Shown: positions 7,772-24,523 of the stretch, in pieces | Layout of the letters: every line of letters begins with the position of its first letter | Position numbering within the stretch: the stretch's first letter is position 1 | The notes under the pieces: generated by a model | Seen by the model: only the letters and a program-made list of their open reading frames with translations | Database searches by the model: none | Told to the model about the DNA's origin: nothing | Virus record (IMG/VR): IMGVR_UViG_3300037481_000204 | Coordinates: 1-25,534 of that record | Reading direction: 5' to 3' (one strand) | DNA length: 25,534 nt | Source of the DNA: a virus | Made by a program: the position numbers and the translations under genes

Positions 7772-9628
7772 TTAGGTCGTTTCTTCTTCCTCCTCCTCTT
7801 CCTCCTCCTCTTCTTCCTCTTCTTCTTCGGCAGGAACGGCAGTACGAGCATTCATCACGCTCTGCGGAGTCATCGTTCTGGGGGCTTCTTCAGCCGGAAC
7901 AAGCGTCTTTGCGAGGGTCGCAAGGGCTTCCTTCTGCTCTTCCAGGGTGAGTTCAAAGAAGTTGTCGTTTTGGGCAATCGCAGTCTTAATCAGCGACTCC
8001 AACTCAAAGTGCAGAATAGCCTTCCATTTGGGGACAAGCCCGGTAGAAACCAACGCTAAGACATCCTTCGTTTCCAGGTTGAACAACGGATCGGCCTGCA
8101 CCGCCAACTTCATAATCGCTGATTTCTCCTCTTGAATGGGGAATCGGGTATCCAAATACTGCTGTGCCAACATCGCCTTGCTGAAGGTCGGAGCCTTCTC
8201 AATCTCGGCAGTCAACTCGGCATCGGTGCGCATCTCAAAGTTCTGCGGATAGCGAATCGCAGGCATTGCAAAGTCTGCGCCATACCGCATCTCGCCAATC
8301 GTCTTGATAGCGAACTCAAAGTCGTGGAAGACCGTGTTGGCAAAGCGGAGCAGGAAGGAATACAGCTCCTCCCGGTCAATGGCCTTACCCGTGGCGGTCT
8401 CACGGCCAGAAATCTTCTCGTTGTTCATTACATCAATGGACAACAACTCAAAGGCCATCTGGATGTTCGTAATGACCTGCTTGTTCAAGAACTCAAGAAT
8501 CTGCGGATCCAACTCAATGAACCCGGCAGGAGGAATGTTCACCTTCGTCTCTACCTCCGAGGTAAAGCGATTCGGGGTCTGAACCTGGTAAACCGACATC
8601 GGCCCGAACATCCGCTTCGTGCCAGAACCACCACAGTTGGAGCAAGCAATGGCAACCTTCTCCTCAAAGCCTAAAGCCTCCTCGGTGTATCCCGAACCGC
8701 TACACTTATCGCACTCGTCCACATATTCCCACTTCTGCAAGAACGCGTGGCTGTACTTGGACATCTGCAAGGTGCTGAAGTCGCACACGGCTTGGTCAAG
8801 GGCCGGGATAGCAGGGGTGTAGAAGGATTGGAAGTAGTAATCGCCTTGCTCCTGCACCGAAATACCGCCCAAACGAGTGCAGGGCAGTTTGTTCATATCG
8901 TGCTTGTAGTAAAGTTCAATCTCAAAGGTGTAGTCAGCCTTCTTGCCCACCTGCTTGGCAATCTGAATCTCGTTCTTGTCAAAGATGAAGAAGACAAGGC
9001 CATCGTCCGTTTTGGTACGGCCATTCTCCACTTCCGAGCCGTAGTCGGCCTTAATGATGGCGTACTCGTTCTCCTTCCAGGCCCAAACGCGCTTAGAGTG
9101 AAAGCAATGGGCCACAGGGGTCGTTTCAACGGTGTCGTTGAACGTGCCGTCCTCAAAGTATTGCAGGTTCGCAGGCATAATCGCCAAGACCGCGTTGGGG
9201 TCGGTCAAGGTCATAAAGCTCACAATCTGCTGAAAGTAGTTCTCCAAAGAACCAAAGCGAGGGTAGTCCTCGGTGAAGTAGCGCTCCTCGGAAGCGTCAT
9301 CAAAGCGCATCTCGTAGTTCTGCCGGTTCCACACGCGCCCGGCAATGTTTACAGCCTTATGAAAGTAAGGCACGGTGATAGGCTTGTAGATGTTCTTGCG
9401 GTAGTTGAACTCGTGGGGAAGCTCGTTCGGAGCCTTCTCCTTGAACAACTTTTCCGGGAAAGCATCGTAGTCGGAGTGAATACGAAGCCTCATCTCCATT
9501 TCTACGCAGGCCCGGTAGGTCGGGTAGAAATCGGGAATGTAGAATTTGTCAGACTTCTTCTTCACCTCGTACTTCTTGTACTCAGCGATGATGTGGTCTA
9601 ACAAGGGTTTGACCTGTTCATTTGTCAT
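7772..9628 (-). CDS. Portal protein with zinc-finger insertion and poly-Glu tail
   Basis: At 618 residues, with conserved-looking patches such as NYRKNIYKPITVPYFHKAVN (about 75-95) and RVWNRQNYEMRF, this is the best portal candidate. It would form the dodecameric ring through which DNA is packaged. It precedes the Mu F-like, scaffold and capsid genes. Around residues 306-335 lie two DnaJ-type half-sites, CDKCSGSG and CSNCGGSG, about 20 residues apart, predicting a bound zinc. Helical stem-like segments follow (NKQVITNIQMAFELLSIDV). The C-terminus ends in 16 consecutive glutamates and two threonines, encoded by mixed GAA/GAG codons. Its probable promoter lies inside the end of the upstream gene. 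The portal role is inferred from size, order and family resemblance. Confidence 0.75.
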   Translation of the reverse strand: MTNEQVKPLLDHIIAEYKKYEVKKKSDKFYIPDFYPTYRACVEMEMRLRIHSDYDAFPEKLFKEKAPNELPHEFNYRKNIYKPITVPYFHKAVNIAGRVWNRQNYEMRFDDASEERYFTEDYPRFGSLENYFQQIVSFMTLTDPNAVLAIMPANLQYFEDGTFNDTVETTPVAHCFHSKRVWAWKENEYAIIKADYGSEVENGRTKTDDGLVFFIFDKNEIQIAKQVGKKADYTFEIELYYKHDMNKLPCTRLGGISVQEQGDYYFQSFYTPAIPALDQAVCDFSTLQMSKYSHAFLQKWEYVDECDKCSGSGYTEEALGFEEKVAIACSNCGGSGTKRMFGPMSVYQVQTPNRFTSEVETKVNIPPAGFIELDPQILEFLNKQVITNIQMAFELLSIDVMNNEKISGRETATGKAIDREELYSFLLRFANTVFHDFEFAIKTIGEMRYGADFAMPAIRYPQNFEMRTDAELTAEIEKAPTFSKAMLAQQYLDTRFPIQEEKSAIMKLAVQADPLFNLETKDVLALVSTGLVPKWKAILHFELESLIKTAIAQNDNFFELTLEEQKEALATLAKTLVPAEEAPRTMTPQSVMNARTAVPAEEEEEEEEEEEEEEEETT

Positions 9629-9680
9629 AGCTATCGCTTTTTACCGCCTCTGCACTTGCACATTGGAATGGAGTTTATGC

Positions 9681-10346
9681 TTACAAAGTTAAGCAATCAC
9701 CACGACCAATTACTATTGACTTAGCTGCCTCAAGCAGCTTAATCTTGTTCTCAATGCCTTTAGTCCAATTTGCGTGATACATCAATACGTCTTTAGGAAG
9801 GCTTAAATTAGGATTCCCAACGCCATCCCAACCATTGCCGGTTTGACCTATGGTGTAATACCTTTCTGGAAGAAGAATGTGGCCATAGTTCATCTCTGCA
9901 AGGGCCGCATTTAAGGATGGTTGGTCGCAGTTAAAGCGAGTCCCCGTCATTGCGATGGTGCGACTTATCAATTCCAAAACCCTGTCCGTCTTTCTGCAAA
10001 CGAAAAAGCCATTACAAGCCTGTCCACTCGGATGGTCTTTTTGAATGGCAAAATCCTTGTCACCCAAAAGGTTTGTTAAGTCGTGCCGTATCGGGCCAAA
10101 GAACTCAATGTCAATATCGCAATGCAAGAATAGGTCATTGTAATTGAGAGCCTGCAACGCATCAAGAATGTTTATCATCCTCCTCTTCATTGAGTCAGCC
10201 CATCCATCCTCAAAATACTCCCCGGTCTTGCAGTCCTGCGGAATACACCTTACTTCCAGGTTCATTCCGTCTTCAAAAGGAAAAGAACCAAGAAAATAAG
10301 GGGCAAGCGATTTGTGACTTTCGGTTATGCAGGAAAAGACTTTCAT
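9681..10346 (-). CDS. Putative glycosyltransferase (Nucleotid_trans/GT77-like)
   Basis: This 221-residue protein resembles nucleotide-diphospho-sugar transferases with a GT-A fold. DLFLHCDIDIEFFGP (about residues 71-85) contains the metal- and nucleotide-binding D-x-D (D77, D79). CNGFFVCRKT (about 111-120), CDQPSLNAAL (about 140-149) and LPERYYTIG (about 159-167) follow the order seen in the Nucleotid_trans family. MYHANWTKGIENKIKLL closes the domain. There is no membrane segment, so it should act in the cytoplasm on an activated sugar. It is the last gene of the glycan cassette and its start overlaps the methyltransferase stop (TAATG). Donor and acceptor cannot be read from sequence. Confidence 0.7.
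   Translation of the reverse strand: MKVFSCITESHKSLAPYFLGSFPFEDGMNLEVRCIPQDCKTGEYFEDGWADSMKRRMINILDALQALNYNDLFLHCDIDIEFFGPIRHDLTNLLGDKDFAIQKDHPSGQACNGFFVCRKTDRVLELISRTIAMTGTRFNCDQPSLNAALAEMNYGHILLPERYYTIGQTGNGWDGVGNPNLSLPKDVLMYHANWTKGIENKIKLLEAAKSIVIGRGDCLTL
9684..9691 (-). promoter_or_regulatory. Bacteroidetes-type -7 element (TAACTTTG) for the portal gene
   Basis: The minus strand reads TAACTTTG inside the last codons of the glycosyltransferase gene, 55 bases before the portal ATG. It would let the head operon be transcribed independently of the glycan cassette. No clear -33 partner was seen. Confidence 0.45.
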
Positions 10347-10972
10347 TAGGAGTTTGCTTTAATGCGTCTTATGATAGCTATGTTGTTGTCGTATTGGTTC
10401 TTGTCGCTCGGCATAGATACAATGTAGTACACAAAAGATAGAGCCTCGCTCATTTGGTCAAGAGACTGAACATACAGGCTCTTAGCGTAATTGGTGATGT
10501 CCTCAATAATGTAAAGGCCATCGTCTTTCAATTTGTGGATTGAGTTCCTCAAAAAAGCCATATTTGCGCTATGCTCGTGTAGGCCATCGTCTATGATAAT
10601 GTCAAACTGAACCTTATTGATAGCCTTATTCTTCCACATTGCCTTGGTTTTCTCATCGCTTTGTTGGTCGCAGTAGAAAGTCTTTATTCTTTCATCGTCT
10701 TGAAATAAGGACGATTCGTCAATGTCAGCACCATACAAGTTGGCAAAAGGGAAATACTTTGCCCAAGCCTTTAAGGAAGCACCTGGTATTCCATTTGCCC
10801 CCATATTACAAGGTATGTCCAAATTTGAAGTGCCAATGCCTAACTCAAAGATGTTCAGTTGTTTATCTCTAAGATGCCCAAACAACACCGAGTAGATTTC
10901 GGTGTAGTTATGCCAAGACCCACCCTTATCGCTCCCATTGGAGGTCATTAAATTACAGAGTTCAGTTTTCAT
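10346..10972 (-). CDS. SAM-dependent methyltransferase (TylF/MycE-like)
   Basis: This 208-residue class I methyltransferase is read from ATG 10972 (MKTELCNLMTSNGSDKGG). An upstream start at 11020 would bury 59 bases inside the preceding gene. Motif I is NIFELGIGTSN (about 40-50), which binds the SAM cofactor. The acidic strand-2 end is YGADID (about 80-85), and FDIIIDDGLHEHS (about 123-135) is the D-D-G-x-H segment that carries metal-binding residues in MycE and TylF sugar O-methyltransferases. GLYIIEDI follows. The closest family role is O-methylation of a sugar hydroxyl. Placed among four glycosyltransferases, it probably caps or decorates the same glycan. The acceptor is unknown. Confidence 0.75.
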   Translation of the reverse strand: MKTELCNLMTSNGSDKGGSWHNYTEIYSVLFGHLRDKQLNIFELGIGTSNLDIPCNMGANGIPGASLKAWAKYFPFANLYGADIDESSLFQDDERIKTFYCDQQSDEKTKAMWKNKAINKVQFDIIIDDGLHEHSANMAFLRNSIHKLKDDGLYIIEDITNYAKSLYVQSLDQMSEALSFVYYIVSMPSDKNQYDNNIAIIRRIKANS

Positions 10973-11819
10973 TCTTAATGTGGCTTTTGATTTTTGAATA
11001 AATCGTGTACTCCTCAGCATACTTATGAACCCACTCGTTCATCTGCTCAACGATAGGCTGAGGCCGAGTGCAGGTGATAATGCCACTTATCTCTTCCTTT
11101 GCCGTAATCGCTTTGGTATAATGTCTTAGATTCAACGCAAACGGAATGTACTCAAGAACATCGGGCGCACCCACATAAATCGGGATGGCTCGGCAGAGAA
11201 TCGCGTCAATAATCTTGTCGGAGATGTAGCCCGACCAAATGCCGTTCTCCATACATACCGAATAACGGTACGGAATAAGGCCGTCAGCCTTGTTCTGCAA
11301 CTCGCCCTTACCAAGACCAAGGCCGCGCCCATAGACATCGGCATAGGCCGTCTGTGCAAGTTCACGGGCCAATTTAACGCGGTTCAAGTAGAAGCCGTGG
11401 GAGATGCCACTCGTCACCATACTCAGCACCCGGCTCTTGCGGTCGGCAATGGAGTCCTTTAGGTAATCCGTGAGAGGGCCATCCATGTGGTAGAACATCC
11501 CGCAGGGGAAGCCAACCAGGTTGCCTGGAATGCCGTAGGTGCTTGGGTGAGCGCAGGTGTAAACGGTGGAGCAGTACGACCCGATATTGCGGTCAAAGAA
11601 ATCGTGATCGGGCGGTTCTTGAATAAAGCCGATAACCCTTTCCTTTGGTACGCGAGGCTCTGCGCTCCGCTTATCGTTGAACGCCACAAGCCAATCGTAG
11701 GAATCGTCATCCACGAACTGAATGCCATCCGACTCCTTCCAAAGGGACTGCTCCATAATCCTTCGGTTCAAGGACGCTGAATCAGTCCAATTACAAATCG
11801 CCCTTACCTTAATGCTCAT
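10962..11819 (-). CDS. GT10-like (fucosyltransferase family) glycosyltransferase
   Basis: The 285-residue protein carries the C-terminal signature of family GT10, known mainly for alpha-1,3/1,4-fucosyltransferases. YRYSVCMENG (about residues 184-193), SGYISDKIIDAILCRAIPIY (about 197-216) and GAPDV match the pattern F-x-x-x-x-E-N ... Y-V-T-E-K ... P-x-Y-x-G. The N-terminal half, with RVIGFIQEPPDHDFF and VGFPCGMFYHMDG, fits the acceptor-binding domain. It is soluble, without signal or membrane segment. GDP-fucose or a related GDP-sugar is the likely donor, by family; the acceptor is unknown. It starts one base after the GT2 stop and overlaps the methyltransferase start by 11 bases. Confidence 0.8.
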   Translation of the reverse strand: MSIKVRAICNWTDSASLNRRIMEQSLWKESDGIQFVDDDSYDWLVAFNDKRSAEPRVPKERVIGFIQEPPDHDFFDRNIGSYCSTVYTCAHPSTYGIPGNLVGFPCGMFYHMDGPLTDYLKDSIADRKSRVLSMVTSGISHGFYLNRVKLARELAQTAYADVYGRGLGLGKGELQNKADGLIPYRYSVCMENGIWSGYISDKIIDAILCRAIPIYVGAPDVLEYIPFALNLRHYTKAITAKEEISGIITCTRPQPIVEQMNEWVHKYAEEYTIYSKIKSHIKNEN

Positions 11820-11820
11820 A

Positions 11821-12477
11821 TCAAAAGTTTTCGGGGATGCAACTCACAAAATTGGCCTGAATACGCTTATGGTTGTTTTGATTGGTCTTGTATAGGTTCT
11901 TGTCCCGGTAAAAGCGAACCCTGTCCTCGTCATCGTGCTTAATGGTGCTTAGGCCGTTATGGAAGGCTCTTTGCTCAAATCCTTGAGCTTCAATGCGCCA
12001 ATAGAAGTCCACATCGTCAAAGCCCCATCCATCAACCACCTCATTGTAACCACGAACCCGGCTAAACAACTCCCTCCAAACCATACAGCATCCCGTACCA
12101 TCTCCGAAGCCCCAACCGGTCACAAACGAACCTCCAACCATAACCTTTTGCCGATGGTAGTTCACGAACGAGTCATTGGTCATTAAAGCGTCAGCATCCA
12201 TAAAAAGGAAGGTGTCAGCCTTTGGTGAAGCGGCCAAAGCACCCAGGTTCCTTGCGTGGCTCAAGTTGAAGCCTTCAGCCTCGTGCCTTACCGCCCGAAC
12301 CCGGTGATCGCATAGTTCCTCAGCATAATCCGCGCTCTTGTCAGGGTCTCCGTAGTCCACCACGATGATTTCATAGTTGTTACCTACCTGGCTCGTCCAA
12401 GTTGGTAGTGCTTCCTCTAAGTGGTGCATACGGCCCTTACAGGTCGTTATGATAGAAACGAATCCTTCTAATTCCAT
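11821..12477 (-). CDS. Family 2 glycosyltransferase
   Basis: This 218-residue GT-A enzyme starts with the GT2 strand (FVSIITTCKGRMHHLEEALP) and then EIIVVDYGDPDKS (about residues 36-48). ARNLGA and TFLFMDADAL follow, the latter holding the D-x-D metal site (D94, D96). The C-terminal WGFDDVDFYWRIEAQG (about 151-166) matches the galactosyltransferase-type G-[W/F]-G-x-E/D-D-x-D motif that holds the catalytic acid. It should transfer a sugar from a nucleotide donor to a glycan acceptor in the cytoplasm. Its ATG overlaps the end of the upstream gene by ten bases, so translation is probably coupled. Sugar specificity cannot be told. Confidence 0.85.
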   Translation of the reverse strand: MELEGFVSIITTCKGRMHHLEEALPTWTSQVGNNYEIIVVDYGDPDKSADYAEELCDHRVRAVRHEAEGFNLSHARNLGALAASPKADTFLFMDADALMTNDSFVNYHRQKVMVGGSFVTGWGFGDGTGCCMVWRELFSRVRGYNEVVDGWGFDDVDFYWRIEAQGFEQRAFHNGLSTIKHDDEDRVRFYRDKNLYKTNQNNHKRIQANFVSCIPENF

Positions 12478-13415
12478 CGTATCAGTTGCTTTTGCTTTCC
12501 TGCGTGTTTTTGTTTTACAAGACTATGCCATTTGTATTCGTGAGTTAAGCCCATAGCAGCGTGGTACTGCCCTAAAAGCTTGCAGGACATCTCCCAAACA
12601 GAGTTGTGAGAGAATCCGGCTCCTCCGTAAAGTCCGAGGACAAAATAGTTTTCGTAAATCCATTTTACGGTCTTGCCGTTGATAGCATTACGAAACTGAA
12701 AGAATACGGGGTTCAATCCGCACCACGGATCAATGCCGAACTGAGCGCAGGCGATGTTAAAGGCAAGTTCGTCAGGATATGTTCCTCCCCAAGGCATCTT
12801 CAGTTTCTCTACCGGGATGCCATTGTCAATGTTGTCCCTAACCTGCTCAAAGAATTGAGTCAAATTCTTCCCCTTGCGAAGAAACATAAAAGAGCTATTG
12901 ATGGCCGTAACCATCGCATCGTCAGGCAGTTCGTGATACTCCCAAATGGTGTCAAGGGTTGCCCATTGCATCTCCGGGAAGTCGGGGCCATTTTGCTTTA
13001 GGTTTGCCATTGGCGTTCTGCCTTTTGGGTCATTCCACGAGGCGGTTTGCGAATAGAAAAATCCTTCTTTAGGTAGCGCAAGAAGATGATCCACCAAAGG
13101 CCTCAATGAAACAACAGCAACCCCATCAATATCAAAATAAAGGTTGTTGTCAAAGGCCATATACTTGTCCATACGCGTCTTGGCCCTTCCGGGGCTGAAC
13201 ACATTGTTGTGGTACAAGTCCTGCTCGTCAATCAGCGTCAAAATGTCAAAGACCCAGTATTTGTGGCCGATTAAAACGTCATTCTTATCGCAAATCAGCT
13301 GAATCGGCAGGTCTCGGTCAAAATGCTTTACCGATAGGGCGAAGTTGTATGCCATTTCGTGATAGGCTGCCTTCCCGAAGGCCATTATCACTATACCCGT
13401 TGTTTGTTCACTCAT
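12468..13415 (-). CDS. Putative GT8-like glycosyltransferase, first gene of the glycan cassette
   Basis: I read this as 315 residues from ATG 13415 (MSEQTTGIVIMAFGK). A possible earlier ATG at 13457 lies inside the terminator stem and upstream of the promoter-like motif. The N-terminal GIVIMAFGKAAYHEMAYNFA resembles the nucleotide-binding start of GT-A enzymes that act on multiple sugars. DKYMAFDNNLYFDIDGVAVV (about 83-102) contains a D-x-D (D95, D97) after the D-x-x-L-Y-F-D pattern of GT8-type enzymes. GGTYPDELAFNIAC near residue 215 may form the acceptor side. No membrane anchor is seen. Family assignment is tentative but a sugar-transfer role is likely from motif and neighbours. Confidence 0.65.
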   Translation of the reverse strand: MSEQTTGIVIMAFGKAAYHEMAYNFALSVKHFDRDLPIQLICDKNDVLIGHKYWVFDILTLIDEQDLYHNNVFSPGRAKTRMDKYMAFDNNLYFDIDGVAVVSLRPLVDHLLALPKEGFFYSQTASWNDPKGRTPMANLKQNGPDFPEMQWATLDTIWEYHELPDDAMVTAINSSFMFLRKGKNLTQFFEQVRDNIDNGIPVEKLKMPWGGTYPDELAFNIACAQFGIDPWCGLNPVFFQFRNAINGKTVKWIYENYFVLGLYGGAGFSHNSVWEMSCKLLGQYHAAMGLTHEYKWHSLVKQKHAGKQKQLIRWN

Positions 13416-13420
13416 TTGTG

Positions 13421-13428
13421 CAAATATA
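13421..13428 (-). promoter_or_regulatory. Bacteroidetes-type -7 element (TATATTTG) before the glycan cassette
   Basis: The minus strand reads TATATTTG, followed by CACAA and then the ATG at 13415. It lies directly after a strong terminator, so it is well placed to start a separate transcript for the five-gene cassette. The short spacing implies a leaderless or nearly leaderless message. Confidence 0.55.
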
Positions 13429-13438
13429 GGTAAATCCC

Positions 13439-13480
13439 AAAAAAAATCCCCGACCATTGGCCGAGGATTCCTTTTTTTTT
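13439..13480. terminator. Strong bidirectional-looking terminator
   Basis: Positions 13445-13469 form a nearly perfect hairpin: AATCCTCGGCC pairs with a matching arm ending GGGGATT, with two G-U pairs and a loop of three to five bases. It is flanked by eight Ts on the minus-strand exit side and ten As on the other side. It ends the 192-residue gene and separates the tail block from the glycan cassette. Confidence 0.88.
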
Positions 13481-14154: not shown

Positions 14155-14170
14155 ATAGGAATTATCCTAT
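14155..14170. repeat. Short inverted repeat at promoter/stop junction
   Basis: ATAGGA and TCCTAT face each other across the four bases ATTA. The repeat spans the stop codon of the 577-residue gene and lies just upstream of the TATCTTTG element. It could be a weak hairpin or a protein-binding site. Six-base arms can also arise by chance. Confidence 0.35.
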
Positions 14171-15895
14171 TCCCGCACAAGGCTCACAAGTAGTGTCGCA
14201 GTCCGTGGGGTTCACGGGAGTGCCATCGCAACACGGATCCTTCCGCAAGTTCTGCTCCTTCACCTCAATCTCAAGGAATGCAGGGGCCACCGTTCTCGTC
14301 CGAATCCAGGTGGGCGAATAGGTTTCCGAGCGGGTGAAGTAGTCGGCCTGGGGCAGAATGCTATCGTTCAAGTTGAAGATGTCGTGTCTGCAAGCCAAGC
14401 GGAGGAAGTTGTGGACATACTTTGGCGATAGGTTCACGACCATCTCCATAAACTCCCGGCTCTCCGCGTACACCACGCGCTTCCTTCCCGCGCTATCCTG
14501 ATAGGAAACCACCTCGCCATCAAACTGCGGATTCCTCAGTTCGCCATAGATCCGGGTGCGGTGGAAGAAGCCTCCGGTGAACACGCCCGAAGGTGGGTAT
14601 TGGAAGCCAAAGGCACAAGCCCCCTTCTCGTCCGTGACATCTTGGGACGCAAGAACGCGGATGGTATTGCAAGTGTCCGTGACCCATTTGTAGGTCTCCG
14701 TGACGCAATACTGCATCGTGTCGTTGCAGGAATAGTCCTGCGTAATCAAAAGCCTAAAGCAGTCGTACTGCGAATAGGGAGATAAGGTGTCGGAGGTGAA
14801 TCTGAATTGGTAGAAAAAATGGCCTTGGTCGGGCTGAATCGCAGTAAACACCCCGAAGTCATAGCTCGTCTTGAAGTTCTTGGTATAGTCAATGCCCGTC
14901 AGAGAATCGGATGGGAGAAGAGTTACGGTCGCTCCAGATGCCCGGTTGACCTGAATGCTTGTAAGCTTTAGTTTAGCCTTGTAAAGACCGCTGATAAGCT
15001 GTGGTTGAACGCGAACAACAAGAGGGAAAGTTCCCGCGGCCCCAGTCCAAGTAAAGTAGAAGATGTAATCTCCTGGGCAAGAAAGGTTCTCTGCGGTACT
15101 TACAATGGCTCCGTCAAGCAGTATGTCCACATTCCCGCAGAACTCATTTGAAAGTTCGTCAAGCGTTAGGCTAATGGAGTAATGTCCCCCGGTTACAACA
15201 TTAATGTTTCTCGTTGCCGTAGCAGACCAATTTGAGGTCGCTTGGACGGGTGTGCAACCTCCATTGACATACAAATAGCAAGGAATGGCGTGATAGGCAA
15301 TCCAGTTTTGGGCCGCATAAGGCGCGCTCGTTGCGCGAGTCCAAAAGCCATTGTTCGGGCAAAAATTAGGCACAAGGCTCGTTGGGCAGAAAATGCCTTC
15401 CATCTGCAAAGACAAGGAGTCCGTGTTGGTTGGGAGAGTCTTGTTAATTAGGATCGGCTGAGAGTAATCGCCCGTCTTACAGTTGGTGCAGTCTTCCTCG
15501 TCCACGGAAAAGCAGAAAATCTGCATATCGGAAATGGTTATACTGCTATCCCCACAAGAAATAGACACATCAAAAACCGATGCGGTAATTGGTATTTGCC
15601 ACCATCCTGTTGAGGTGATTTGCAAGTCGTTTAACCCATTAATCGTGACCGTGCATCCATCTGAAACGTCAAACGAACTAACATTCACCCGAAGAATGGC
15701 GTTCTTGCAAGGAGGCTTATTGGAGAAAAAACTAACAGTTATCTTCGGTGAGCCACCGCCAAGGACAATAACACCGCCCCCAAGCGTGACATCGCCATTG
15801 TAATATGCCGAATTGGTTTTCCAATCGTCTGGAACCCAATTTTTTGAGTCAAGAGTGCTATCTACGCAGACAATGGGTTGGTTGGGAGTAATCAT
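14162..15895 (-). CDS. Large tail-associated structural protein, cysteine-rich (577 aa)
   Basis: This protein follows the tape measure and 662-residue genes, where distal tail or baseplate proteins are coded. Its N-terminal 130 residues look like a beta-sandwich (NAILRVNVSSFDVS, TVTINGLNDLQITS, WWQIPITASVFDVS), as in carbohydrate-binding modules. A second beta-rich region (about 225-320) includes NVDILLDGAIVSTAENL. A more mixed C-terminal domain follows (about 400-550). The end is cysteine-dense, with DPCCDG, DCDTTCEPC and a final AGIG. Its start overlaps the upstream gene as ATGA. Function is inferred from position and fold style; no depolymerase motif was recognised. Confidence 0.65.
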   Translation of the reverse strand: MITPNQPIVCVDSTLDSKNWVPDDWKTNSAYYNGDVTLGGGVIVLGGGSPKITVSFFSNKPPCKNAILRVNVSSFDVSDGCTVTINGLNDLQITSTGWWQIPITASVFDVSISCGDSSITISDMQIFCFSVDEEDCTNCKTGDYSQPILINKTLPTNTDSLSLQMEGIFCPTSLVPNFCPNNGFWTRATSAPYAAQNWIAYHAIPCYLYVNGGCTPVQATSNWSATATRNINVVTGGHYSISLTLDELSNEFCGNVDILLDGAIVSTAENLSCPGDYIFYFTWTGAAGTFPLVVRVQPQLISGLYKAKLKLTSIQVNRASGATVTLLPSDSLTGIDYTKNFKTSYDFGVFTAIQPDQGHFFYQFRFTSDTLSPYSQYDCFRLLITQDYSCNDTMQYCVTETYKWVTDTCNTIRVLASQDVTDEKGACAFGFQYPPSGVFTGGFFHRTRIYGELRNPQFDGEVVSYQDSAGRKRVVYAESREFMEMVVNLSPKYVHNFLRLACRHDIFNLNDSILPQADYFTRSETYSPTWIRTRTVAPAFLEIEVKEQNLRKDPCCDGTPVNPTDCDTTCEPCAGIG

Positions 15896-17880
15896 TCCGT
15901 TAGAAGTTCAAAGGTAGTCATTCCTGTTTTAATGTCGTGAGCCATATTCAAAATCCAACCCGTAATGCCATTAAACACAATCGGGGCAGGAGGGTCGGAC
16001 AAAATAAGGTTTAATTCACTCCTTGTGAGCGGCACTTCAATACTATAAAGGTATTTGATATGCAAAGAGGATGTATTGTCAACGGTTGAGCCTTTTATCT
16101 TCAAACCATTGGATGTTCGTATGACATAATTCTTGGCTACCAAAGGATGAACCGCTGAACCGGTGTGGGTTAAGAATCTCCCAAAATACGGTGGCCCTGT
16201 CAAAGAATTAAATTCAGACACATACGACACGCTCCCCAAATATTCGTTTGGCGGCAATGGAGCTGGTATTGTGAATGCGCTCCAAAGTAATTGAGGCTGT
16301 GCTGCACTTAATGCCGCAAACCCGCCCCAATCAACCATATAAATGGTTTCATTGTCTATCAATTCTACATCAATAGAAAACCCACCCTGCGGAAACGCTA
16401 AAGAAGTGTTGATTGAAGCCTCATTGTCAGTACAATCATTTGATATGTAAGAAACTTCCGATTGAAGATAGGCCCAGGCATTTTGATTGGTTTGAGAATA
16501 ATTCAATTTAGATATTCCAAACTCACTATCTTTCCTTTTTGAAATAAGCCTTGCGCTATCAATCTGAATGGTTGACCCTGTGGTTGGAAAAAAATAGTCT
16601 TCCTGTTCTATACGGACATATTGAGTACCTGCATCAAAATATGGATACATACTCAAATTATACAAAGACGAAAGCGACCCGTAAAGGTCTTGAAAGCTCA
16701 TATAAACCGAATTGCTCCTCGGATCGTTGGCTTGCGGTGGAGAAGCTGGAGACGGCTTAAATGCTCCCCCATAATTAATGTAAAGATTTGTGCCACCATA
16801 TTTGCCATTGACATCAATGGTTGCAGAACCAATAGTTGCCTCCAACTTTCTTCCCGCTATTTGATAGTAGTCTTGTGATGTGTATAGTAGGGTATTGGAT
16901 GGAAAACTTGATATCTTTATTGAAACATCGGTATTGTGAAAAAAGCGAAACCTCAGCATCGTTTGCCCAACATAAACAACGTCAGCATTTCCGACATTTA
17001 ACCCTTCAATGATTCTGGGATTTACACCTTGCACTAAGTCAATTTCATTTCCAGGAACAGTGCCATCCCATAAAACAGAGACTATTATTTGATTTCCAAC
17101 ATTATTGGAGTCAAGTGGCCCGGCTAAAGTCGTGGTAACGGATTGTGGGTCTCCATAAATATCAGTCCAAGAGGTTACTGCTTGAACAACGGTGTCACCG
17201 CCCGGAACCACTAAATTGCCTGTCCATCCCAAAATCATACCACATATTTTTTCGGTATAGAATTTAGCGGTTGTGCCAACATTGATGCCAGGCCCTATGC
17301 CTAAAAAATCAGATACTATGGTAGCTCCGTTATCCGTTATGTAATCAAGTATTTGTTGCAAAACCTCTGCCACTCTAAATGACTTAAACATTTTTGCAAA
17401 AGGCGGGTCTAATGCTCCTGCTAATGCGGGTGTCAAACTGCTTCCAACCGTTCTAAACGGCATTGGAAAGTCAGATATAGGGGCAAGAACGCTTCCATTA
17501 ACTGTTTTTCCGCAGTTAACCTGAACCTTTGCGTCTTTCAATCTGCTCAATTTCCCATATATCGTATTGTCCTCAATGTTGCACTTGGCAACGCAACGAT
17601 ACAAGTCAAGGTCTATTTCGGACAAGAATATAATTCCGTCTCGGTTTATTCCATTCGTACATTGCTCTTCAATCTTAACCAAAATTTCTCCACATCCAAA
17701 ACCGGTTTCAAATTCCGTTTTTATGATTTCGTAGGCATTCCCATAAAACTCAACATCCGCAATGAAAGTCGTAATAAGTCCCGGAAGATCTGGGTCTCTT
17801 CGGTATTCAAACTTGGAATCCATCCAATTCATCGGCTCCTCAACTTCCGTCCCGTTGAGGTAAAACTTGAATACGGCCAT
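15892..17880 (-). CDS. Large distal tail / baseplate-type structural protein (662 aa)
   Basis: This gene starts within the stop codon of the tape measure gene (TAATG), the usual place for distal tail or tail-associated proteins. The N-terminus (FKFYLNGTEVEEPMNWMDSK, then FEYRRDPDLPGLI) looks like a beta-rich tail-attachment domain, followed by two cysteine pairs between residues about 60 and 130. The central region (about 180-450) alternates strands and loops, with DYFFPTTGSTIQID near residue 430. The C-terminus ends GWILNMAHDIKTGMTTFELL. I cannot assign a catalytic activity. A Dit-like or baseplate hub role is the best inference from order and size. Base composition is more AT-rich than in the head genes. 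Confidence 0.62.
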   Translation of the reverse strand: MAVFKFYLNGTEVEEPMNWMDSKFEYRRDPDLPGLITTFIADVEFYGNAYEIIKTEFETGFGCGEILVKIEEQCTNGINRDGIIFLSEIDLDLYRCVAKCNIEDNTIYGKLSRLKDAKVQVNCGKTVNGSVLAPISDFPMPFRTVGSSLTPALAGALDPPFAKMFKSFRVAEVLQQILDYITDNGATIVSDFLGIGPGINVGTTAKFYTEKICGMILGWTGNLVVPGGDTVVQAVTSWTDIYGDPQSVTTTLAGPLDSNNVGNQIIVSVLWDGTVPGNEIDLVQGVNPRIIEGLNVGNADVVYVGQTMLRFRFFHNTDVSIKISSFPSNTLLYTSQDYYQIAGRKLEATIGSATIDVNGKYGGTNLYINYGGAFKPSPASPPQANDPRSNSVYMSFQDLYGSLSSLYNLSMYPYFDAGTQYVRIEQEDYFFPTTGSTIQIDSARLISKRKDSEFGISKLNYSQTNQNAWAYLQSEVSYISNDCTDNEASINTSLAFPQGGFSIDVELIDNETIYMVDWGGFAALSAAQPQLLWSAFTIPAPLPPNEYLGSVSYVSEFNSLTGPPYFGRFLTHTGSAVHPLVAKNYVIRTSNGLKIKGSTVDNTSSLHIKYLYSIEVPLTRSELNLILSDPPAPIVFNGITGWILNMAHDIKTGMTTFELLTE

Positions 17881-24401: not shown

Positions 24402-24454
24402 TGCACAAAGAAAGGAAAGGATATCATTTGGGTGGTGTCAACGAAATGATTTTG

Positions 24455-24523
24455 CAGCTATGGCAGGATTTGAACCTGCAAGGACCCATAGTTAAGGGCG
24501 TGTGTGCCTCCCACCACATAGCC
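24455..24523 (-). tRNA. tRNA-like element, Leu-like but degenerate
   Basis: On the minus strand GGCTATG pairs with CATAGCT as a seven-pair acceptor stem with one G-U pair. GCAGG and CCTGC enclose TTCAAAT, a good T arm. The D region (TGGTGGGAGGCACACAC) resembles tRNA-Leu. The anticodon arm is abnormal: only GCCC/GGGT pairs, around the eight-base loop TTAACTAT, and the long variable arm of a leucine tRNA is missing. At 69 bases it is short and encodes no CCA. Aligning the loop to leucine tRNAs would give UAA as anticodon, but this is uncertain. It may be a working odd tRNA, a relic, or part of a structured leader RNA. Confidence 0.5.

Follow-up and report, generated by a model that had tools for sequence, protein, structure and literature searches.

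Glycosylation loci with features of the one described here are known from viruses and bacteria. Chlorovirus capsid glycans are made in the cytoplasm and consist of a conserved core with methylated variable ends (PMC5408694, PMC7826918). In mycobacteriophages, the subunits of the capsid and of the tail tube are glycosylated (Freeman et al. 2023, as summarised in PMC12619734), and in other phages glycosyltransferases (GTs) are reported to glycosylate hypermodified DNA bases (Pyle et al. 2024, as cited in PMC12619734). Enterobacterial flagellin glycosylation islands lie between fliC and fliA and are optional, being present in 15% of strains (PMC4875605). Here we describe a glycan cassette in a 25,534-nt stretch of DNA from an uncultured phage (IMGVR_UViG_3300037481_000204, positions 1 to 25,534; hereafter the window). 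Among open-licence papers we found no published description of such a phage locus.

The likeness to the chloroviruses lies in virus-encoded soluble GTs working in the cytoplasm, and in a core common to all that receives per-virus signature decorations, with a methyltransferase acting on the terminal sugar. Shared GT genes accompanied by variable decorating genes, methyltransferases among them, were what we found, and the comparison is one of analogy with no homology claimed. The two differ in that the PBCV-1 GT genes are expressed early and the chlorovirus acceptor is known, whereas the present locus belongs to a tailed phage and forms one compact operon beside structural genes. With the mycobacteriophages the parallel would be phage glycans on virion proteins; for those phages the summary cited mentions neither methylated end modules that can be exchanged nor a constant position of the genes between tail and portal. 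Flagellin islands likewise hold highly variable sets of GTs, accompanied by acyl transferases and by methyltransferases of the FkbM and other families; they are flanked by genes for the structural parts of a protein filament and are horizontally exchanged (PMC4875605), but they are bacterial and optional, whereas the phage locus was present in every relative found. The glycosylation of DNA in phages (T4; Pyle et al. 2024, as cited above) also relies on phage-encoded GTs but requires a hydroxymethylated base, and no enzyme for making one was found in ten contigs here.

Layout and enzymes of the cassette

Five open reading frames, all on the minus strand and overlapping or abutting where the initial annotation had placed them, run in the order GT8-fold, GT2, GT10, methyltransferase (MT) and Nucleotid_trans (NT), flanked on the upstream side by a gene of the tail region and on the downstream side by a portal-like gene (Table 1). 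GT8 and GT2 overlap by 10 bp, GT2 and GT10 are separated by 1 bp, GT10 and MT overlap by 17 bp, and MT and NT by 1 bp. As had been claimed, the cassette proteins tested have no membrane segment (no hydrophobic 19-mer above KD 1.4).

Table 1. Coordinates of the cassette and its flanking features in the window.
Feature	Coordinates	Strand	Basis or remark
tailprot, tail-region structural gene, 192 aa	13493..14071	-	cassette's upstream neighbour in every relative; 3' of TMP and two large tail genes
Intrinsic terminator hairpin, tailprot/cassette gap	approx. 13439..13475	-	folding energy, conservation
Cassette promoter motif TAnnTTTG (Bacteroidota -7 type), TATATTTG	13421..13428	-	ends 5 nt before GT8 start codon
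GT8-fold (GT-A) glycosyltransferase, 315 aa	12468..13415	-	always gene 1 of the locus; model fold, invariant motifs
GT2-family glycosyltransferase with GT7C-type C-terminal motif, 218 aa	11821..12477	-	Pfam, profile matches
GT10 (fucosyltransferase-like) glycosyltransferase, 285 aa	10962..11819	-	Pfam, profile match
MT, MycE/TylE-like sugar O-methyltransferase, catalytic domain only, 210 aa	10346..10978	-	swappable module gene 1
NT, Nucleotid_trans (PF03407) glycosyltransferase, 221 aa	9681..10346	-	swappable module gene 2
Portal promoter motif TAnnTTTG, TAACTTTG	9684..9691	-	overlaps NT end; downstream edge of exchanged module
Portal-like gene	7772..9628	-	phrog_145 match 6e-4; cassette's downstream neighbour in every relative

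The strong terminator and promoter-like motif proposed upstream of the cassette were both borne out. The terminator is a 17-pair hairpin followed by a T-run (-21.3 kcal/mol, z -3.0). It recurs in the clade-1 members inspected, where a C-G pair has been replaced by T-A, a compensatory change. In these members TATATTTG or TATCTTTG follows the hairpin just before the GT8 start codon. The motif TAnnTTTG starts 13 nt upstream of GT8 and again 63 nt upstream of the portal gene, in keeping with the separate portal promoter that had been suggested, and the portal copy is retained regardless of the module that precedes it. Across the window, TAnnTTTG occurs within 80 nt upstream of 10 of 26 genes, compared with 1.2 expected by random placement, and on the wrong strand for 1 of 26; a sigma-70 promoter scan gave no useful site at the cassette. 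TAnnTTTG is the -7 element of Bacteroidota, which suggests that the host is probably a member of this phylum. Elsewhere in the window, a tRNA-Ser gene with an unusual ACT anticodon call lies near the end of TerL (24454-24523). Residues 300-340 of the portal-like protein include a pair of DnaJ-type CxxCxGxG motifs, a cysteine motif retained in clades 1 and 2, and the C-terminus of the protein is a run of glutamates.

The product of the first gene gave no sequence match in Pfam or the PDB, and so none of significance to a GT8 profile or a solved GT8 enzyme. An AlphaFold model built from 15 sequences of three clades was good (pLDDT 88, pTM 0.89); an earlier one, based on 12 closely related sequences, reached a pLDDT of 44 and was discarded. 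The best PDB folds for the good model were LgtC (GT8), UGGT and glycogenin (E 1e-8 to 1e-6, TM about 0.5), and its predicted GT-A fold comes with DxD (D95/D97), NSSF and YPDELA motifs that are invariant across the three clades. The GT8-like call of the initial annotation, invisible to Pfam, thus finds support in the modelled fold, and we file the gene as GT8-fold by this prediction rather than as a member of family GT8. It is under purifying selection (dN/dS 0.06-0.08). Its invariable first place, together with a predicted fold shared with LgtC and the self-glucosylating glycogenin, leads us to propose that it may be the initiating enzyme, carrying out the acceptor-specific step.

For the next two enzymes and the last, Pfam upheld the families that had been assigned. 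GT2 matched PF10111 (1e-13) and PF00535 (5e-13), has its DxD as DAD, and by profile matched beta-1,4-galactosyltransferase 7 and GalT1. GT10 matched PF00852 above the cut-off (3e-7) and the alpha-1,3-fucosyltransferase 2nzw by profile (1e-8), and carries the EN and YI(S/T)(D/E)K motifs. NT matched PF03407 (1e-6) with 29 bits against a curated cut-off of 22. MT gave weak Methyltransf matches only in Pfam; the TylF/MycE-like call is nevertheless supported by matches to the sugar O-methyltransferases TylE (8ia9, 3.5e-17) and MycE (3ssm, 4e-11). This putative sugar O-methyltransferase retains the IDDGxH...IED motif and has no counterpart to the N-terminal domain of these two enzymes.

The substrates of MycE and TylE are macrolide sugars, and the match of MT to these enzymes could point to a small molecule or a lipid as the target of the cassette, instead of a virion, DNA or surface glycan. 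We regard this as most improbable: no small-molecule scaffold genes were seen, the first enzyme has the predicted fold of LgtC and glycogenin, and FkbM-family methyltransferases, found in many relatives of the cassette, are common in flagellin glycosylation islands (PMC4875605).

An ever-present locus with exchangeable ends

IMG/VR scans yielded three clades of uncultured phages. Among the contigs fetched, 45 span tailprot to portal, namely the window and 44 others (27 of clade 1, 7 of clade 2 and 10 of clade 3); some contigs of the same clade are near-identical, so the independent number is below 45. Relative to the window, the portal is 75% identical in clade 2 and 71-77% in clade 3, where tailprot is 42-48% identical. 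The locus occupies the same place in all 45, which argues against chance. The initial annotation had asked whether the cassette appears as an insertion relative to cassette-free relatives; the IMG/VR scans found no relative without the locus, and a recent insertion is not supported. Outside these clades, a 50,697-record collection of cultured phages held no match to the portal, GT8 or the likely capsid gene g07, and the best cultured relative of TerL was that of Flavobacterium phage 11b (31%). Bacterial genomes gave no match to portal or GT8 in a pattern-based search, which could miss distant relatives.

The GT8-fold gene comes first in every spanning contig, GT10 is present in 42 of 45 and a methyltransferase in 44, but the gene sets before the portal form at least 13 combinations. 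All types begin with the GT8-fold gene (domains from Pfam). The window, L006 and L007 continue with GT2-GT10-MT-NT (T1), and T2 with GT2-GT10-Methyltransf_23-GT. T3 to T6 add to GT2-GT10 one or two FkbM methyltransferases, or FkbM and a 200-aa GT-like protein, and T7 reads GT2'-185 aa-GT2-GT10'-FkbM. In T8 the series is GT2'-185 aa-DegT aminotransferase-hexapeptide acyltransferase-unknown-GT2-Methyltransf_24, and in T9, without a methyltransferase, GT2'-185 aa-DegT-PglD-like acyltransferase-unknown. Clade 2 has GT2-GT10-100 aa-FkbM (T10), and clade 3 has GT8-GT10-FkbM, a six-gene form with two FkbM, and GT2-GT10-T2 module-FkbM (T11 to T13). One further arrangement occurs in the fragment L029. 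GT8-GT2-GT10 is the only widely shared part, MT and NT being one of many interchangeable ends, and even this three-gene core is not universal since GT10 is absent from three contigs (T8, T9) and GT2 from 6 of the 10 clade-3 contigs. The view of the locus as a glycan cassette with a methylating step therefore stands on its enzyme families, whereas that of a single five-gene unit fails on the varying gene sets: MT and NT occur together in only 3 of the 45 contigs, and a fixed unit is ruled out.

Two oddities were seen among these contigs. L007 (6567-7121) and L046 have a second, diverged tailprot copy (59-64%) upstream of the normal one, the two being ~630 bp apart with an extra ORF within the gap. 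L037 and L025 (6748-7374 in each) encode a DegT-type aminotransferase of 208 aa, compared with 360 for the Pfam profile, that seems to retain the lysine motif and is possibly a minimal or remodelled enzyme.

Synonymous distances reveal that the modules transfer horizontally, both as end modules and as entire cassettes. Between the window and L007, dS is 0.03 for NT and 0.09 for MT, as opposed to 0.31 for GT10, 1.28 for GT2, 1.54 for GT8 and 0.56 for the portal. Between L024 and L003, the whole stretch from tailprot through FkbM has a dS of 0.03-0.21, whereas outside the cassette the values are 2.29 for fib1, 0.85 for the portal and 1.49 for g10. Across clades 1 and 3 the T2 methyltransferase is 84% identical, in the same comparison as GT8 at about 50% and tailprot at 48%. 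On either side of the island, the window and L005 share about 90% identity or more (portal 99%); they have different caps, and nothing aligns from the GT10 end to the last part of NT. The edges of the exchanged module, at the GT10 end and the portal promoter, are sharp. Distances of the genes on the 5' side of the island (g20-g23) agree with those on its 3' side (portal, g10) at r 0.85-0.99, whereas those of GT2 do not follow the flanking genes (r 0.12-0.19; 0.19 with the portal). A Rad52-like annealase is encoded and we found no convincing repeats at the module edges as a sign of site-specific exchange, so homologous recombination in the shared flanks is the likely route. Purifying selection acts throughout (dN/dS 0.02-0.14). 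Beside tailprot, the two large tail genes fib1 and fib2 (14162-17880 in the window, and relatives) also vary strongly (24-99% identity), independently of cassette type.

The probable glycan acceptor and its alternatives

The sequences show which enzyme families are present, how their genes are ordered and conserved, that selection on them is purifying and that modules are exchanged; from this we infer an order of sugar addition, an acceptor and a benefit. We favour, with moderate confidence, a soluble phage-encoded pathway in which a glycan would be started on an acceptor, most likely a protein of the virion, then lengthened and finished with a methylated cap that is open to exchange. The GT8-fold enzyme would put the first sugar on a phage-made acceptor, GT2 and the fucosyltransferase-like GT10 would elongate the glycan, and the end genes, varying among phages, would add outer sugars and O-methylation, or acylation in some types. 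Nucleotide sugars would be supplied by the host, perhaps except in the types with an aminotransferase and acyltransferase. Conserved first and exchangeable last steps would give virions a common glycan base with differing methylated outer epitopes, and selection for variation might come from what the outer glycan contacts, such as host surface lectins, glycosidases or surfaces on which the phage adsorbs.

A virion protein is favoured as acceptor by the location of the cassette, the lack of membrane segments, the late strand and the obligatory presence of the locus. The co-location with late genes noted in the initial annotation holds: in near-complete relatives the cassette shares the late strand, and the replication genes DnaB, Rad52-like and C5 methyltransferase are on the opposite one. 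With the portal controlled for, GT8 distances correlate with those of several structural genes (g07 0.47, g08 0.41, g06 0.41, tailprot 0.32), none of which is singled out. The sequence is compatible with more than one acceptor, and a late position could also suit a late host-directed function, in which the cassette would alter host surface glycans, the other target named in the initial annotation, for receptor masking, superinfection exclusion or easier release of progeny from receptor-bearing debris. Loci for changing surface polysaccharides often combine GTs with FkbM-type methyltransferases and vary just as much. We nonetheless think this unlikely, as the cassette enzymes tested have no membrane segment, the genes lie on the late strand, no integrase was found in ten contigs, and a locus that no spanning member of three clades lacks, and that always adjoins structural genes, is more in keeping with a role in the particle. 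Lysogenic conversion of the gtr kind, which pairs a temperate phage with a membrane-bound Gtr, is weakened by the lack of an integrase in ten contigs and of membrane segments in the cassette proteins tested.

The enzyme searches covered these ten contigs, mostly fragments, and we place weight on the 43.1-kb G002 and the 44.5-kb G001. G002 is circularly permuted, with both ends meeting in G001 coordinates, and is thus near-complete. The ten held no PF00535 enzyme outside the cassette. They bear also on the idea that the cassette glycosylates hypermodified phage DNA, given that phage GTs are able to build sugars on hydroxymethylated bases and that 3 of the 10 contigs encode a C5 cytosine methyltransferase. 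Neither a Tet/JBP dioxygenase nor a thymidylate-synthase-family hydroxymethylase was found in the ten (mostly fragments, one near-complete), which weakens this idea; the C5 methyltransferase was not found in the other seven, again mostly fragments, and the GTs are grouped with late rather than replication genes. We give DNA as a target very little credence. In L092 the C5 methyltransferase (9096-11198) has its halves split by a long insertion, which is overlapped, in a different frame, by an ORF resembling an HNH endonuclease (10111-10716).

Returning to the virion glycan, this locus bears on why phages glycosylate their particles. It is never lost in three clades and purifying selection on it is strong, yet phages trade its last genes. 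Flagellin glycans and chlorovirus capsids show such a pattern too, which is that of a structure facing outwards and diversifying. Whether this group of uncultured Bacteroidota phages bears a virion glycan with an obligatory base and a methylated tip exchanged by recombination, a serotype-like system of the particle, we judge an even chance. Pairs such as the window and L005, which differ in their caps, would offer near-isogenic comparisons, provided by nature, for learning what the tip of a phage-made glycan does.
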